Origin: a virus
Length of the DNA stretch: 20,383 bases
IMG/VR virus record: IMGVR_UViG_3300040811_000778
Coordinates: 1-20,383 of that record
Direction: 5' to 3' (one strand)
Positions 614 through 19,491 of this stretch are shown here, in pieces (the first letter of the stretch is position 1; each line of letters starts with the position of its first letter). The notes under the pieces were generated by a model that worked only from the letters and a program-made list of their open reading frames with translations, did not search any database and was not told the origin of the DNA. A program made the translations under genes and the position numbers.

Positions 614-679
614 AGCCCTAGCTACGATGAGGTGAGACGGGCCATGGCGCCCATTGCACAACCTCTGTGGTAGCCACCC

Positions 680-8341: not shown

Positions 8342-8355
8342 TGCAGTCGGCATTG

Positions 8356-8386
8356 GCTGGCTAGATACCCTGTACTGGTAGCCGGC
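8356..8386 (+). other. Stem-loop between tail and lysis genes
   Basis: GCTGGCTA (8356-8363) pairs with TAGCCGGC (8379-8386): eight base pairs in RNA with one G-U and a 15-base loop, inside the only gap between the fibre gene and the lysis genes. No T-run follows, so it does not read as an intrinsic terminator. GCTA...TAGC inverted sequences also occur in the two other gaps on this strand (621-674 and 9891-9906), each just before a CCATGG start. It could be a processing, promoter-linked or translational element. Confidence 0.45.
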
Positions 8387-8392
8387 ACAGCC

Positions 8393-8643: not shown

Positions 8644-8790
8644 ATGGATCAGGCTCAAACGCTCGCCATCATCGCCATTGTCGTGGCAGCTGGCTCTGAA
8701 GTGATCGGGATGCTGCCCATCCGTGAGAACAGCTGGGTGCAGCTGATCGTGAAGATTATGGAGACCGCCTTCCCAAAGCGCAACGGCTGA
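8644..8790 (+). CDS. 48-residue membrane protein, candidate holin
   Basis: A 48-residue protein starting two bases after the previous stop and ending three bases before the endolysin. Residues 6-21 (TLAIIAIVVAAGSEVIGM) form one hydrophobic helix, followed by a polar turn (LPIRENS) and a second amphipathic stretch (WVQLIVKIMETAFPKRNG) with a basic end. Small size, one or two membrane-active helices, basic C-terminus and position immediately before the endolysin are holin-like. No family could be recognised with certainty. Short proteins with a 'SE.IG..P...NS.VQL' pattern seem familiar from cyanophages, from memory only. The start has a tagCCATGG context. Confidence 0.55.
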   Translation: MDQAQTLAIIAIVVAAGSEVIGMLPIRENSWVQLIVKIMETAFPKRNG

Positions 8791-9873: not shown

Positions 9874-9917
9874 GCCAAAAGGTTGCGGCGGCTACAGTTG
9901 CTTAGCGGCACAGCGCC

Positions 9918-10103: not shown

Positions 10104-10380
10104 AGGCACATGGCTGGTCACAAGGAGATCAGCCCGCGATCAGATTTTGTTGGCTTGGGATTATCGTTGCGCGTATTGCGGCGAAGAGCTGGGCTGCAAG
10201 CCAACTATTGATCACATCGTGCCCAAGGCAAGAGGCGGCCCTACGGTGCCCAGCAATCTGGTGGCCTGCTGCATGACGTGCAACTCCTCAAAAGGGCACA
10301 GCACGTGGCTTGAGTGGTATCGGCAGCAGGCCTTCAGCTCAACGCTTGGCGAGTGGGCGATTAGGCAATGGATGACTTAG
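10084..10380 (+). CDS. Free-standing HNH endonuclease
   Basis: A 98-residue HNH-family nuclease. A zinc-binding CAYC (29-32) and a second pair in CCMTCN (62-67) frame the core DHIVPKARGG (43-52), with PSNLVACC (56-63) supplying the central Asn. H44 would be the general base. The N-terminus is basic. Such small HNH proteins in phages either act with terminase at the packaging site or are homing endonucleases. No terminase is in the window, and this one sits after the endolysin at the end of the plus-strand late cluster. It meets the minus-strand cluster tail to tail with a four-base overlap (10377-10380). Confidence 0.85.
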   Translation: MGQHRIEGTWLVTRRSARDQILLAWDYRCAYCGEELGCKPTIDHIVPKARGGPTVPSNLVACCMTCNSSKGHSTWLEWYRQQAFSSTLGEWAIRQWMT

Positions 10381-10661
10381 CGCCACTTGTTGCCCAGCAG
10401 CTGCTGACGGCAGACCTCGATGGCCTGCTGCGCCTGCTTTTGCGTCATCACAGATTCTGTGGCGTCCATCGCCTTCACTGCGCGATTCAGCAGATCAGGG
10501 TAGGAAGTGTCGCGGAAGTTGACGGCGACGTCTCGGCAAAACTCTTTCCAGAGTCCCGTGTATGTGCTGCAGGTGCGGCCGCTTTTTTGGTAGAGCGCCT
10601 CCATCATCTCTGAGCGCTTCTGATCAAGTTCAAATGATTTCATGGCGGTGACGGCCGGCAT
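10377..10661 (-). CDS. Hypothetical protein, last gene of the sigma-factor cluster
   Basis: A 94-residue, largely helical protein. I chose the ATG at 10661, which overlaps the upstream stop as TGATG, over the in-frame TTG at 10664. Features are an N-terminal helix (SFELDQKRSEMMEALYQKSG), a cysteine-containing middle (RTCSTYTGLWKEFCRDVAVN) and a C-terminal helix (MTQKQAQQAIEVCRQQLLGN). There are three cysteines and no membrane segment. No family recognised. It is the promoter-distal gene of the sigma cluster and converges with the HNH gene with almost no space for a terminator. Confidence 0.6.
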   Translation of the reverse strand: MPAVTAMKSFELDQKRSEMMEALYQKSGRTCSTYTGLWKEFCRDVAVNFRDTSYPDLLNRAVKAMDATESVMTQKQAQQAIEVCRQQLLGNKWR

Positions 10662-11002
10662 CAAATTATGGTGCGCGTCTGATGGTTTGGGTCGGATTCG
10701 TCAAGTCCGTGCACTTCAGGACCAAAGCCGGTGGCGATGTGCTCAGGTGTTAGGCCTTCCTTAGGTTGCTGTTTCTTGGCTTGGCGTTCAGCGTCTGACG
10801 CTTGTACGCTCTCGACCCAGCTATCGAAGGCTTGGCGGCTTGGTGTGCCCAACGGGAGGCCAAGCCACTTGCGCAGCACCTTCACATCCCGAAAGAAGAG
10901 GCTGCAGCCCTTGCGGTATCCGATCCAATAGCGTCCATCCCAATCGGGGCCGGTTTCGATTGACATGCCGCCGGGCAGGCGCAGGGCGTCGCGTTTGACC
11001 AT
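10661..11002 (-). CDS. Hypothetical protein in the sigma-factor cluster
   Basis: A 113-residue protein. Its N-terminal half is compact and aromatic (SIETGPDWDGRYWIGYRKGC, then SLFFRDVKVLRKWLGLPLG), suggesting a small beta/alpha domain that could bind nucleic acid or a partner. The second half is polar (EPQ/K-rich, residues 75-113) and probably disordered. It starts one base after the stop-adjacent base of the upstream small gene and overlaps the downstream gene by one base, so the four genes form a coupled set with the sigma factor. No known family recognised. Confidence 0.6.
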   Translation of the reverse strand: MVKRDALRLPGGMSIETGPDWDGRYWIGYRKGCSLFFRDVKVLRKWLGLPLGTPSRQAFDSWVESVQASDAERQAKKQQPKEGLTPEHIATGFGPEVHGLDESDPNHQTRTII

Positions 11003-11003
11003 C

Positions 11004-11171
11004 TCAGGGCTTCAGCATTTGGTTGAGGTAGAGCTCGGCCTGCCATAGGTCTGAGCTGTAACGACAGATCCCGCCGAGGCAGCTTCGATAGAAGAGCTCA
11101 CCCTTCTCGGGTTCAAGCGTTTCGATGAAGCCGCCATCGCGATCGATTCTGCTAATTACCCGAACCCGCAT
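11004..11171 (-). CDS. 55-residue hypothetical protein coupled to the sigma factor
   Basis: A short gene whose ATG (11171-11169) lies inside the end of the sigma-factor gene (20-base overlap) and whose TGA (11006-11004) is one base before the next start. The product reads MRVRVISRIDRDGGFIETLE, then PEKGELFYRSCLGGICRYSS, then DLWQAELYLNQMLKP: a strand-turn-strand start, a CxxxxC pair and a C-terminal helix. It fills what would otherwise be the only gap in this cluster, with tight spacing on both sides, which supports a real gene. Co-translation with a sigma factor makes an accessory or anti-sigma role imaginable, but nothing in the sequence shows this. Confidence 0.55.
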   Translation of the reverse strand: MRVRVISRIDRDGGFIETLEPEKGELFYRSCLGGICRYSSDLWQAELYLNQMLKP

Positions 11172-12072
11172 TGATGGCTAGGCGCCTGCCTTCATTGTTG
11201 CACTGCTGGCGAATCAACCTGTTCAGGCGCATCATGGCTCGCTGTAGCCGCTGCCTGATAGCTTCGCGGCTAACGCCACCTTCTTTCCCCAAGGCCGACA
11301 GCGTGGCTTTCTTGTATCCGGGCAGCCCGTTGTACCTGCAGATCAAATACCGTTCGTCTTCCTCAAGGCTGTTCAGGGCATCGGCCAGCATGTCACGCTC
11401 AAAGGTGAAATCATCCTCCTCGTAAAGGGTTTTCTCATCTGGGATCAGATCAATCAGCCGATGCTTCTGTATATCGTTTGAGGCATGGTTGTCGAGGCTT
11501 GTGACATCCCTGGCCATCAGAAGCGATAGCACCACATCATCACGCTCGATCTCTAGCTCAGCTGCGCATTCAGCCAGCGTTGGCTCTCTGCCGGTCAGCT
11601 GTTGCTGCCGTGTCATGAATGCGCGTAGCTTGACGATCTTCTCCTGCCTGTGGATGGGGAGCCTGATCAGCCGATCGCAATCCTGCAGGCCGCGGCTGAT
11701 TGACTGGCGGATCCACCAGTACGCATAGGTGGAGAACTTATAGCCACGGGAAGGGTCGAACAGCTCAGTCGCGCGATCTAGGCCCATGTTGCCAAACTGC
11801 ACTAGATCCAGCAGTTCAAGCGATGAACAGCGGCGAATGTACTTTTTGGCGATGGTCACCACCAGGCGCAGGTTGCGGGTGATCATGCGCTCCTTCGCAC
11901 GTTGGCCGCGGCGGATGACCATTTTCTGCTCTCGCGTGTAGTCAGCAGCGTCGATGTCTTGAGACTGCAAATCCAGCATCTTCTGGATCTGCCTGCTGTA
12001 CTGAATTTCTTCTGCAGGAGTCAGCAGCGGATGGCGGGCGATCTCGTTGAGGTAGTGGTGAACGGAATCCAT
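11152..12072 (-). CDS. RpoD-family (group 2-like) sigma factor
   Basis: A 306-residue sigma-70 protein that would direct host RNA polymerase to chosen promoters. Region 1.1 is absent; region 1.2 is at 3-30 (HHYLNEIARHPLLTPAEEIQ). Regions 2.1-2.4 span about 58-145, with LVQFGNMGLDRATELFDPSR and the core YKFSTYAYWWIRQSISRGLQ. The -10 reading residues W119, W120 and Q123 are kept and Thr440 of E. coli is replaced by S126. Region 3 is about 145-200. Region 4.2 helix-turn-helix is 254-285 (KKATLSALGKEGGVSREAIR), with R269, E270, R273 and Q274 kept for the -35 element. All domains look intact. It lies downstream of a strong terminator after ssb, so its expression probably depends on readthrough or a local promoter I cannot define. 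Its ATG is in a CCATGG context. Confidence 0.93.
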   Translation of the reverse strand: MDSVHHYLNEIARHPLLTPAEEIQYSRQIQKMLDLQSQDIDAADYTREQKMVIRRGQRAKERMITRNLRLVVTIAKKYIRRCSSLELLDLVQFGNMGLDRATELFDPSRGYKFSTYAYWWIRQSISRGLQDCDRLIRLPIHRQEKIVKLRAFMTRQQQLTGREPTLAECAAELEIERDDVVLSLLMARDVTSLDNHASNDIQKHRLIDLIPDEKTLYEEDDFTFERDMLADALNSLEEDERYLICRYNGLPGYKKATLSALGKEGGVSREAIRQRLQRAMMRLNRLIRQQCNNEGRRLAINAGSGN

Positions 12073-12091: not shown

Positions 12092-12113
12092 AAAAGAAAG
12101 GCCCCGAAGGGCC
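12092..12113 (-). terminator. Intrinsic terminator after ssb
   Basis: Read on the minus strand: GGCCC, loop TTCG, GGGCC, then TTTCTTTTA. The five-pair GC stem (12100-12113) is closed by a very stable C(UUCG)G tetraloop and followed by a U-rich run. It begins six bases beyond the ssb stop and ends about 20 bases before the sigma-factor start. Confidence 0.85.
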
Positions 12114-12119
12114 ATCTGA

Positions 12120-12464
12120 TCAGAAGGGCATCTCAGCAACGGCTGCAGCAGGCTGCTGCGCTGCGCGTGGCGGCAAGGTGAAGTCAGAGACCCTGAGCAC
12201 AAGCTTGCAAGCTGTTGAGCCGTCTTTGCGCTCGTACGTCTCGGCGTGGGCGTCACCAGCCACGGTGATCTGGCTGCCCTTGCTCAGGTACTGGGCAGCC
12301 ACGGCAGCACGGGCGCCCCATACTGCGCAGTCAATTGCGGTGACGTGTTCTGCGTCCTTGGTCTTCTTGTTCACCAACAGGGTGAAGTTCGTCACCTCGG
12401 TATTGCCGGCGGTGTTGTTGCGAGGATCAGCGGCCAGGTTGCCGCTGGCGGTCACGTTGAGCAT
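12120..12464 (-). CDS. ssb: Single-stranded DNA-binding protein
   Basis: A 114-residue OB-fold protein, shorter than cellular SSB (about 170). It starts MLNVTASGNLAADPR, followed by VTNFTLLVNKK (24-34), HVTAIDCAVWG (40-50), AAQYLSKGSQITVAGDAH (56-73) and a final LVLRVSDFTL strand, in the standard SSB order. A short Ala/Gln-rich linker leads to the ending AVAEMPF, which resembles the acidic-hydrophobic SSB tip (DDIPF in E. coli) used to recruit partner proteins. It coats single-stranded DNA during replication and recombination. Its start overlaps the ribbon-helix-helix gene as TGATG, and a terminator follows it. Confidence 0.92.
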   Translation of the reverse strand: MLNVTASGNLAADPRNNTAGNTEVTNFTLLVNKKTKDAEHVTAIDCAVWGARAAVAAQYLSKGSQITVAGDAHAETYERKDGSTACKLVLRVSDFTLPPRAAQQPAAAVAEMPF

Positions 12465-12649
12465 CAGCTGAAGAAAGTGGAGAGGATGGCGATAATGGCC
12501 TGATTGTTGTTCAGGCCGGTGGTGTGCAGGTACTGGCGGAACTTCTCTGCCAGTTCAGGCGGAAGCCTGGCCTGCACCTGATCACGTTGGCGCTTGCGAT
12601 CAGCGCGTCTGCGGTATTCGCGCAGTATCTGGCGCGGTGTTTCAGCCAT
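12464..12649 (-). CDS. Small ribbon-helix-helix-like DNA-binding protein
   Basis: A 61-residue, very basic protein. The first 24 residues are Arg-rich (ILREYRRRADRKRQRDQ). Residues 25-61 (VQARLPPELAEKFRQYLHTT, then GLNNNQAIIAILSTFFS) fit a ribbon-helix-helix domain: a short strand, helix 1, a turn with Gly-Leu-Asn and helix 2. Such proteins act as dimeric regulators, often of their own operon. It overlaps ssb by one base and the upstream gene by eight, so it is made with the recombination proteins. The fold is inferred from the pattern; target sites are unknown. Confidence 0.65.
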   Translation of the reverse strand: MAETPRQILREYRRRADRKRQRDQVQARLPPELAEKFRQYLHTTGLNNNQAIIAILSTFFS

Positions 12650-13042: not shown

Positions 13043-13736
13043 GGTGTTCTGCGGTGGTGATGTGTTGAGTGATGAGCGCGTCGGCGGCAAGGCTGAAGCG
13101 CTGCTTAAAGGCGGCAATCAGCTTGTTCCGTTGATCGGCGGGCATGTCTTTGAGCAGCTGCACGCAGAGCTGCCGTTCATCTTCTGTGATCGGCTCGCCT
13201 TGAGGCTGCTGCTGAGGCTCTGGCGCTGCTGCTGGGGCAGCTGGCTCAGGTTTGGCCGCGGCCTTGGCGGTTGCCTTGTTGGCGGGCTTGGCCGGTGCAG
13301 GATCCTCGCGGTGGGGATCCTCCACGGGATCCTTCGCCCACAGCTCAAAGGCAAGCCCCAAGCTGAATGCGGCGCAGGCGCACATGGCGCGGCGGTGCGT
13401 GTCTGTGAGGATCCTGGCGCTGACCTTCTCCAGCTGGATCGGATTGTTCCGGTGATCCATGCATGGGAAGGGGAAGCTGGCTAGCTGCTGGCCGCCAGGG
13501 CCGGCGAAATGGCCGATCACCAGGCCCGTGCCATCTGGCGCTTGATGCAACAAGCCGCCATCAGTGGCCGGTTCTAGGTGGAACTGCCAGCCGGGCGCGT
13601 GCTCGTGGAGCAGGTGCGCCACCTTTGCCCAGTTGACGTAGGACGCGGCATAAGAGCCGGTCCCCTTGGTGTCCACATCGGCCTTGGTGATGACACCGGC
13701 CAGATTGGGGATTTTGAGGCTTTCAGTTTCAGGCAT
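13011..13736 (-). CDS. Probable single-strand annealing protein (Sak3/DUF1071-like)
   Basis: A 241-residue protein. Residues 30-135 resemble the DUF1071/Sak3 branch of phage annealing proteins: YVNWAKVAHLLHEHAPGWQF (33-52), a strand pair, SFPFPCMDHRNNPI (87-100) and a helix with RRAMCACAAFSLGLAFELW (115-133), which corresponds to the 'R.l.KaiA.hGLGl.i' helix. Residues 136-182 are an Ala/Pro/Lys linker that opens with three acidic-Asp-Pro steps; residues 183-241 form a helical C-terminal domain. It would pair complementary single strands produced by an exonuclease. Neighbours RusA and SSB, and the RecB-type nuclease at the head of the strand, fit this. The family call is by pattern, so moderate. 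Confidence 0.6.
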   Translation of the reverse strand: MPETESLKIPNLAGVITKADVDTKGTGSYAASYVNWAKVAHLLHEHAPGWQFHLEPATDGGLLHQAPDGTGLVIGHFAGPGGQQLASFPFPCMDHRNNPIQLEKVSARILTDTHRRAMCACAAFSLGLAFELWAKDPVEDPHREDPAPAKPANKATAKAAAKPEPAAPAAAPEPQQQPQGEPITEDERQLCVQLLKDMPADQRNKLIAAFKQRFSLAADALITQHITTAEHRDFIQQQLTA

Positions 13737-14172
13737 GAGGCGTGATTGCGATGTGCGTGTAAGGAGCGCAGTCCCGGCCGATCAGATACCCCTTGCTTGA
13801 GTTCAGATCAATGACCTGACGATCGTCGAGGTATGCCACGCCGGTTAAGGCATCAAGGATGGCCCGGCTGAGCTTGTCTATGTCGCCGATCCTTGCGCTG
13901 ACTGGCTCATCTGGTGCGCTGGCTTTGATGTAGCTGATGCCGCCTTTGGATCCGTAATGGCTGGCAGGTCTGGGAAACCAGAAGCGGATGAGGACATCCA
14001 TCGGGACCTTCATATCCCAGATCACCGGCTTGTTCTCTATGGCAGCCATGCGGACATCGCTGCGCCAAGGATGAACACGCTTGGATGATTCCACCATCAC
14101 CTTGCCGAGCAGCCTCTTGCTGCCCTGCGGTGCTGCTGTGCCCCACACCGTGAAGGAGTAGGCAGAGCTCAT
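13729..14172 (-). CDS. rusA: RusA-family Holliday junction resolvase
   Basis: A 147-residue protein taken from the ATG at 14172, which forms an ATGA overlap with the upstream gene; the frame is open further but the upstream part is not protein-like. VWGTAAPQGSKR (about 8-19) is the RusA N-terminal strand and loop. The signature is GDIDKLSRAILDALTGVAYL (95-114) then DDRQVIDLNSSKG: aspartates of D-x-D-K and D-D-x-Q coordinate Mg2+ in RusA. It cleaves Holliday junctions produced by recombination or replication and may also clear branched DNA before packaging. It overlaps the annealing protein gene by eight bases. Confidence 0.88.
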   Translation of the reverse strand: MSSAYSFTVWGTAAPQGSKRLLGKVMVESSKRVHPWRSDVRMAAIENKPVIWDMKVPMDVLIRFWFPRPASHYGSKGGISYIKASAPDEPVSARIGDIDKLSRAILDALTGVAYLDDRQVIDLNSSKGYLIGRDCAPYTHIAITPHA

Positions 14173-15094: not shown

Positions 15095-15110
15095 GGGCCC
15101 CGAAGGGCCC
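15095..15110 (-). terminator. UUCG hairpin after the 15119 gene
   Basis: On the minus strand GGGCCC-TTCG-GGGCCC, a six-pair GC stem with a C(UUCG)G tetraloop, beginning eight bases beyond the stop codon of the preceding gene. It is followed by TCCCCATCC rather than a T-run, so it may stabilise a 3' end or weakly terminate. It is the same core as the hairpins at 12100 and 15450. Confidence 0.6.
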
Positions 15111-15118
15111 CAAATGAA

Positions 15119-15420: not shown

Positions 15421-15449
15421 ATTATGGCATACCACGATCAAGGTGGCAA
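15421..15449 (-). promoter_or_regulatory. Promoter P1, sigma-70 type with extended -10
   Basis: Minus strand: -35 TTGCCA (15449-15444), 17-base spacer, -10 CATAAT (15426-15421) preceded by TGC, an extended -10. The shared core GGTATGCCATA also occurs in P2 and P3. The -35 directly abuts the upstream gene's hairpin. Predicted start of transcription is about 38 bases before the 15376 ATG. Confidence 0.7.
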
Positions 15450-15465
15450 GGGCCCCGAAGGGCCC
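15450..15465 (-). terminator. UUCG hairpin after the 15474 gene
   Basis: On the minus strand GGGCCC-TTCG-GGGCCC begins eight bases after the stop codon and ends directly at the -35 hexamer of promoter P1. The following bases, TTGCCACC, are not a good T-run, so termination strength is uncertain; insulation of adjacent units is a reasonable guess. Confidence 0.6.
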
Positions 15466-15473
15466 GGTTCAAA

Positions 15474-15665
15474 TCAGGCGGCGCACCAGCGGCGTGCCGT
15501 GGTGTGGCTGACGCCAAGGCGCTTGCCGATGGAGCGGTAGGAGCTGCCGGTGCGGTGCCAACGGCGTGCCCGCTGCTGAGGGCTTTCTGTGGCCCAGAGG
15601 ATCACCACCAGAGGGATGGTGAGCAGGGCGAGCAGCGTGGCGGCGAAGCAGGTGAGTGTGGCCAT
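15474..15665 (-). CDS. Membrane segment joined to a helix-turn-helix, cassette 2
   Basis: A 63-residue protein starting in an acCATGG context. Residues 3-24 (TLTCFAATLLALLTIPLVVI) form a membrane helix. Residues 30-63 are basic and end with SYRSIGKRLGVSHTTARRWC (42-61), a good match to resolvase/transposase-type helix-turn-helix segments (S..IG..LGVS..T..RW). A membrane-tethered regulator of this size is unusual. Alternatives are that the hydrophobic segment packs inside a small protein, or that translation also starts later. It is driven by P2 with a leader of about 100 bases and followed by a UUCG hairpin. Confidence 0.6.
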   Translation of the reverse strand: MATLTCFAATLLALLTIPLVVILWATESPQQRARRWHRTGSSYRSIGKRLGVSHTTARRWCAA

Positions 15666-15776: not shown

Positions 15777-15804
15777 AGTATGGCATACCGCAGCCAATCA
15801 TCAA
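15777..15804 (-). promoter_or_regulatory. Promoter P2, sigma-70 type with extended -10
   Basis: Minus strand: -35 TTGATG (15804-15799), 16-base spacer, -10 CATACT (15782-15777) preceded by TGC. The surrounding CGGTATGCCATACTTT is identical to P3 and contains the 11-base palindrome GTATGCCATAC (odd centre). A following TGCAG is also shared with P3. Confidence 0.7.
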
Positions 15805-16191: not shown

Positions 16192-16220
16192 AGTATGGCA
16201 TACCGTAATCCGTCTCGCAA
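16192..16220 (-). promoter_or_regulatory. Promoter P3, sigma-70 type with extended -10
   Basis: Minus strand: -35 TTGCGA (16220-16215), 17-base spacer, -10 CATACT (16197-16192) preceded by TGC. The core CGGTATGCCATACTTT is identical to P2. It begins four bases after the stop codon of the 16224 gene and drives the 15833 gene with a leader of about 38 bases. Confidence 0.7.
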
Positions 16221-19471: not shown

Positions 19472-19491
19472 TCCGCCTACCCTTCACTCGG

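Follow-up and report, generated by a model that had tools for sequence, protein, structure and literature searches.

The window analysed here, the whole 20,383-base stretch of a virus record, carries a gene for a sigma-70 family sigma factor within a compact group of small genes (Table 1). When 36 open reading frames (ORFs) of the window were compared with S-CBS3 (NC_015465, 33 kb, Synechococcus CB0202) using tblastn, homologues of nearly all were found, with their order largely kept. This homology extends from the tail terminator as far as the gene that follows the RepA-like helicase, meaning the window is without the terminase-portal-capsid part; RepA itself, used as a scanning query, found only S-CBS3. 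Judged by gene content and order, the window is a fragment of an S-CBS3-like Synechococcus siphovirus. The span 11004-12072, quoted for the factor in a preliminary description of this DNA, comprises the sigma ORF (11152-12072) and the next small ORF (11004-11171).

Table 1. Features of the window discussed in the text, with their positions, strand and the evidence recorded for them.
Feature	Positions	Strand	Evidence
Sigma-70 family sigma factor, group 2-type, 306 aa, ATG start	11152..12072	-	Pfam, PHROG, alignment
Region 1.2, residues 2-34	11971..12069	-	PF00140, 49.8 bits
Region 2, residues 63-130; -10 readers T115, Y116, W119, W120, Q123, and S126 (T440 position)	11683..11886	-	PF04542 and alignment
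Residues 80-84, extra residues between regions 2.1 and 2.2, phage-clade marker	11821..11835	-	segment length in 60 phage and 41 host sequences
Region 3, residues 144-218	11419..11643	-	PF04539
Region 4, residues 232-283; -35 readers R269, E270, R273, Q274	11224..11379	-	PF04545 and alignment
Small ORF, 55 aa, overlaps sigma stop; homologue in S-CBS3 gp25	11004..11171	-	
Small ORF, 113 aa, phrog_37139; homologues also in sigma-less phages	10661..11002	-	
Small ORF, 95 aa; homologue of S-CBS3 gp27	10377..10664	-	
Terminator-like hairpin GGCCCTTCGGGGCC with T-rich tail, between ssb and sigma gene	12100..12113	-	
Early promoter TTGCGA-N17-CATACT, palindrome GTATGcCATAC over -10	16192..16220	-	
Early promoter TTGATG-N16-CATACT, palindrome GTATGcCATAC over -10	15777..15804	-	
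Early promoter TTGCCA-N17-CATAAT, palindrome GTATGcCATAC over -10	15421..15449	-	
Late -10-only element TACCCT, 27 nt before gp20-like gene 8393	8366..8371	+	
Candidate late -10 element TACGAT before 680; also in S-CBS1 and G001	623..628	+	
Candidate late -10 element TACAGT before 9918	9893..9898	+	
Candidate late -10 element TACCCT after RepA; also in S-CBS3, G001 and G002	19478..19483	+	

The gene product is firmly identified as a complete phage sigma factor of group 2 type. The four Pfam matches (Sigma70_r1_2, r2, r3 and r4) were all over cut-off and put the fold beyond doubt, and Pfam matched nothing N-terminal to region 1.2, which begins at residue 2, bearing out the earlier statement that the factor is complete but lacks region 1.1. 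The protein also matched phrog_351, ‘RNA polymerase sigma factor’, at 3e-75. Its best NCBIfam model was Sig70-cyanoRpoD (TIGR02997), at 253.5 bits against a curated cut-off of 384.5 bits, and it is therefore a relative, rather than a canonical cellular member, of that family. Alignment to E. coli sigma70, in which the roles of the individual residues are general knowledge, equated W433, W434 and Q437 with W119, W120 and Q123, and R584, E585 and Q589 with R269, E270 and Q274, so both the retention and the numbering of these six readers were right in the preliminary description. With R588 corresponding to R273, the TYWWQ and RERQ sets are both intact. The serine at the T440 position (S126) had been given as the one change; the substitution itself is correct, but the count is too low. 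In region 4.2, R586, E591, R596 and R599 are replaced by A271, L276, M281 and N284 respectively, the region 3.2 finger is rewritten, and E407 of region 2.2, conserved without exception across 41 host sequences, gives way to phenylalanine (F93) in the window sigma and one relative (IMGVR contig L002) only. The E407F substitution and the other changes could alter the binding of core polymerase. Comparison with this relative, which is 88% identical, gave a dN of 0.066 and a dS of 0.72 (dN/dS ~0.09): by this measure the gene is under purifying selection, and is no chance ORF.

A quick tree of 94 sequences, with SH-aLRT supports and no bootstrap, combined 53 viral sigmas with 41 cyanobacterial ones, among the latter most of the paralogues that PF04542 picked out in three strains. 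The window sigma formed a five-row clade with L002, S-CBS3, L003 and L004 (SH-aLRT 100), nested in a 49-row phage-only clade (SH-aLRT 98); the S-LBS1 group fell outside the latter, on long branches. Hence the phylogeny, which had been suggested as a check, places the factor among phage sigmas and outside the recent paralogues of one host, the placement that would have counted against the preliminary description. The sigma of a 5.6-kb ‘viral’ contig (L009, IMGVR_UViG_3300006305_000945) grouped with Prochlorococcus, and this contig is probably host DNA. Regions 2.1 and 2.2 are separated by 15-17 residues in all 60 non-redundant phage sequences, as opposed to 13 in all 41 host sequences. The -35 quartet RERQ is complete in 33 of the 60 phage sigmas, compared with 36 of the 41 host sigmas, three of the five host exceptions being RDRN. 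Such erosion of the -35 readers in the wider phage clade would fit, indirectly, with promoters centred on the -10 element, although the window sigma itself keeps the quartet. The invariance of the -10 readers across the 60 phage sequences was dropped as evidence, because this set was mostly gathered with six search peptides that included YAYWWIRQ, and is thereby biased for the -10 helix; TYWWQ was nevertheless intact in all 12 phage sequences chosen without this peptide.

Several related phages appear to have no sigma factor. Among these uncultured and possibly incomplete records, a PF04542 search found no sigma in G007, G008, G009, G011, G013 and G014, searches with PF04545 and phrog_351 at E-values up to 10 found none in G007, G009, G011, G013 and G014, and reading through the DNA that separates the ssb or annealing-protein gene from the endolysin revealed none in G007, G011, G013 and G014. 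In G018 (32.5 kb), the genes that flank the sigma gene in S-CBS3 are present and the sigma is missing; two small helix-turn-helix-like proteins (12143-12481 and 13458-13796, plus strand) stand in its expected place.

In four cyanosiphovirus isolates, S-CBS3, S-CBS1, S-LBS1 and KBS-S-2A, the place of the sigma gene is conserved: it occupies the distal end of the early/replication module, or a position close to it, where it faces the structural module and converges on the endolysin gene. Together with P-SS2, these phages all have sigma genes, and the earlier view that such a factor is unusual in a lambda-like phage does not hold for small lambda-like cyanosiphoviruses. The three small ORFs that trail the window sigma do so closely (20-bp overlap, 1-bp gap and 4-bp overlap), and the compact cluster described previously is real; compared with their counterparts at 20897-21710 of S-CBS3, the three genes (window 10377-11171) are in reversed order. 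Their candidacy as sigma partners or anti-sigmas was rejected, given this difference in order and the homologues of the 113-aa protein in sigma-less phages, which mean that this ORF is not a dedicated sigma partner.

The GGCCCTTCGGGGCC hairpin in the gap between ssb and the sigma gene recurs in L002/G001, while a different hairpin follows ssb in S-CBS3, G002 and G003. Three near-identical GGCCCTTCGGGGCC hairpins occur at early gene boundaries on the minus strand of the window (12100-12113, ~15098-15113 and 15450-15465), the last directly before an early promoter, and S-CBS3 has one at the corresponding position of its early module (25840). The sigma gene is expressed either from its own start, or by read-through past the GGCCCTTCGGGGCC hairpin. 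On the opposite strand, an unlisted 48-aa ORF (MDQAQTLAIIAIVVAAGSEVIGML...) before the endolysin gene (8644-8790), conserved in G001-G003, is a possible holin.

Two classes of promoter element could be separated in these phages. The first is represented by the sites at 15421, 15777 and 16192, which have in common GGTATGCCATAnT, the core of which is the palindrome GTATGcCATAC across the -10 element. Across 12 phages, S-CBS3 among them, a TTG lay 16-18 nt 5' of CATAnT in 19 of 20 motif copies, compared with 1.1 in shuffles, and this spacing marks the GGTATGCCATAnT sites as promoters. Copies of the cassette lie in S-CBS3 (26115 and 28915) and G007 (11437); the palindrome is present in two tandem copies in G007, the second within the -35/-10 spacer, and this doubling suggests an operator bound by a protein. 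Copies in G006, G010 and G015 were set aside, being inside the RusA coding sequence and without a TTG box, as was that in G012/L187, which has the same flanks as G015. The preliminary description had proposed the three window sites as targets of the sigma. However, the promoter family is intergenic in the sigma-less G007, G008, G009, G011, G013 and G014, and missing from the sigma-bearing S-CBS1, S-LBS1, KBS-S-2A, G016 and G017, an occurrence that rules out sigma-specific sites. Nor could the residue at the T440 position be linked to the C at -12, as L007 has threonine, L011 has serine, and the motif is found in both. On the plainest reading, the host enzyme would use the GGTATGCCATAnT sites as early promoters, perhaps under the control of a phage repressor.

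A 63-aa protein encoded on the minus strand (15474-15665) is hydrophobic at its N-terminus and resembles a helix-turn-helix at its C-terminus, with homologues in S-CBS3 (82%), G001, G002, G004-G006 and G015. Its gene is downstream of a motif copy in six phages (the window, S-CBS3, G001, G002, G004 and G005), and it is a possible candidate for the repressor or regulator of the palindromic promoters. Short hairpins, exemplified by GGCGGAGACGCC and GCCGGAGACGGC (GAGA loop), could be recognised by eye within ~25 nt downstream of many cassettes, placing them near the predicted mRNA 5' end, for instance in L007, L011, G008, G011 and G013.

The second class lies on the late strand. Most close homologues (~50% identity or more) of the gp20-like gene have TAnnnT approximately 26-32 nt before their start, with varying inner bases (TACCCT, TATCCT, TACACT, TAGCCT, TAACCT, TAAGCT, TAGGCT, TACAGT and TAAACT). 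The pattern TAnnCT was fixed from the gp20 homologues and annotated genomes, then tested on 41 held-out sigma-bearing contigs, in which genes were called simply as longest ORFs. It was found at -34 to -22 in 42 of 281 held-out late-strand gaps, against 11.3 in shuffles, with 34 sites in one 6-nt bin, although KBS-S-2A and some of the gp20 homologues used in choosing the pattern were among the contigs tested. On the early strand of these contigs, TAnnCT was not in excess (6/230 gaps vs 10.2 in shuffles). The late consensus is TA(A/G)nCT without an extended -10, and few sites (4/44 and 3/18) have a TTG where a -35 would be. However, TAnnCT was also present in 21 of 109 late gaps (5.0 expected from shuffles) in eight contigs without a detectable sigma. 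This equal enrichment means the element is not assignable to the window sigma, which would not be its sole reader. The earlier suggestion that the factor serves the late genes therefore stands in part: the gaps at 614-679 and 8342-8392 do have -10-like elements (TACGAT at 623 and TACCCT at 8366), on a strand enriched for them, but the enrichment does not depend on this sigma. Before the sigma genes themselves TAnnCT was not in excess (9/50 vs 8.7 expected), and a feedback loop of the sigma on its own gene was discarded. The separation of these two promoter classes, neither of which appears strictly dependent on the sigma, is what the present analysis adds.

Taken together, these data are compatible with an early-to-late switch, and we judge the chances to be evenly balanced that the window sigma is an early-module product that partners the host core polymerase and favours late promoters without a -35 element. 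The host SigA holoenzyme would read the early promoters, with their -35, extended -10 and operator-like palindrome; the sigma made from the early module would then bind host core polymerase, and shift it to the late-strand promoters that have a -10 (TAnnCT) and no -35. This would raise late transcription, or free the late genes from host conditions. As the late elements are present in sigma-less relatives, the factor would probably be a booster rather than the only reader, with a host group 2 sigma, SigA or another factor reading the late promoters of phages without it. Among cyanobacterial promoters, those of type 1 carry both a -35 and a -10 element and are basically used by group 1 sigma, whereas those of type 2 have the -10 alone or with activator motifs; when a psbA promoter was reduced to its -10, the group 2 sigma SigD could use it and SigA could not (PMC2758279). 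The early and late elements of the phages match this division in their hosts. The switch is supported by the intact domains and residues, the selection on the gene, the phage-only clade, the insertion between regions 2.1 and 2.2, the fixed place of the gene in four isolates, the TTG spacing of the early promoters, the excess of TAnnCT on the late strand and the SigD precedent. Against it count the retention of all four -35 readers in the window sigma, the possible effect of E407F and the other changes on core binding, the equal enrichment of the late element in contigs without a detectable sigma, and the lack of any sign of feedback in the form of a TAnnCT excess before sigma genes. SigA of marine picocyanobacteria also tolerates promoters with only a -10. 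A broader version can be offered tentatively, as something we would sooner doubt than affirm: that small cyanosiphoviruses base their switch on the host's type 1/type 2 split, with a lineage of phage group 2-type sigmas driving the late TA(A/G)nCT set in place of a gp55 system. That lineage would be marked by the 2.1-2.2 insertion, with the -35 readers eroded in many members.

Other explanations divide over who reads the promoters. Host sigmas, SigA and those of group 2, may read all of them, with the phage factor a late backup for when host pools change, such as in the dark or under nutrient stress. Relatives without the sigma retain both early and late elements, and Ma-LMM01, a cyanophage without a gp55-type sigma, has SigA-like motifs for its early, middle and late genes (PMC5780444). 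Yet strong purifying selection and a fixed place in several cyanosiphoviruses argue that the sigma matters often, and we consider this backup role rather improbable. Very unlikely is the suggestion of the preliminary description, that the window sigma reads 15421, 15777 and 16192 and thereby amplifies the early module: these are genuine promoters, and its -35 readers could use their TTG boxes, but the family occurs in six sigma-less phages and is absent from five sigma-bearing ones, early promoters must act before the sigma exists, and the T440-position residue does not follow the motif.

The factor might instead be an auxiliary regulatory gene, mainly reprogramming host genes rather than acting on phage promoters. 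According to a review (PMC10452541, citing Sawa et al. 2019), S. elongatus PCC 7942 grew better when it expressed RpsD4 of S-CBS3, and its acetyl-CoA rose 1.9-fold. However, overexpression outside infection reveals a capacity rather than a role, and the place of the gene in the replication module argues for the timing of phage genes, making such a primary function unlikely. That the sigma is host DNA, or a newly captured host paralogue, is scarcely credible: cyanobacteria are rich in group 2 proteins of the sigma-70 family, but nearly all window genes have S-CBS3 homologues in largely the same order, and the sigma falls outside the host clades.

Cyanophages shape marine carbon flow, and gene timing in small cyanosiphoviruses has been little studied. 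Several of these phages carry a group 2-type sigma, and the two promoter classes supply exact sequences with which it can be compared with SigA. The kind of gene is already known, group 2 sigmas having been reported in cyanosiphoviruses since 2009, as with ORF 113 of Prochlorococcus phage P-SS2 (PMC2784084); by its sequence, gene neighbourhood and place in the tree, the window sigma is a further member of the S-CBS3-like rpsD4 sigmas. The P-SS2 gene likewise adjoins ssb (PMC2784084), but its phage belongs to another lineage, has a larger genome (over 106 kb), and carries a group 3 sigma as well. The closest likeness is to S-CBS3 gp29 (rpsD4, YP_004421751), annotated ‘group 2 RNA polymerase sigma factor’, which is 60% identical over 292 aa, has the same orientation, and shares the neighbouring ssb, small ORFs, HNH and endolysin genes; it differs in having aspartate at the E407 position, where the window has phenylalanine, and in the reversed order of some downstream small genes. 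S-CBS1 gp27, S-LBS1 A33 and KBS-S-2A CPKG_00011 have the same domain set and the same early-module end facing the endolysin, but are only 34-44% identical (44% for S-CBS1 gp27), and come from phages without the GGTATGCCATAnT promoter family; the S-LBS1 sigma has also lost the -35 quartet (TRES). Cyanobacterial group 2 sigmas of the SigB-SigE type share regions 1.2-4, the lack of region 1.1 and the YAYWWIRQ -10 helix, whereas in the phage clade region 4.2 has diverged and two to four more residues lie between 2.1 and 2.2. The late sigma gp55 of T4 is a small, divergent protein from which most of a full-length sigma is missing, unlike the full-length window factor with its regions 3 and 4, and it works with gp33 and the gp45 clamp. 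The resemblance between the two would be in their working only, as phage sigmas paired with late promoters that consist of a -10 alone.
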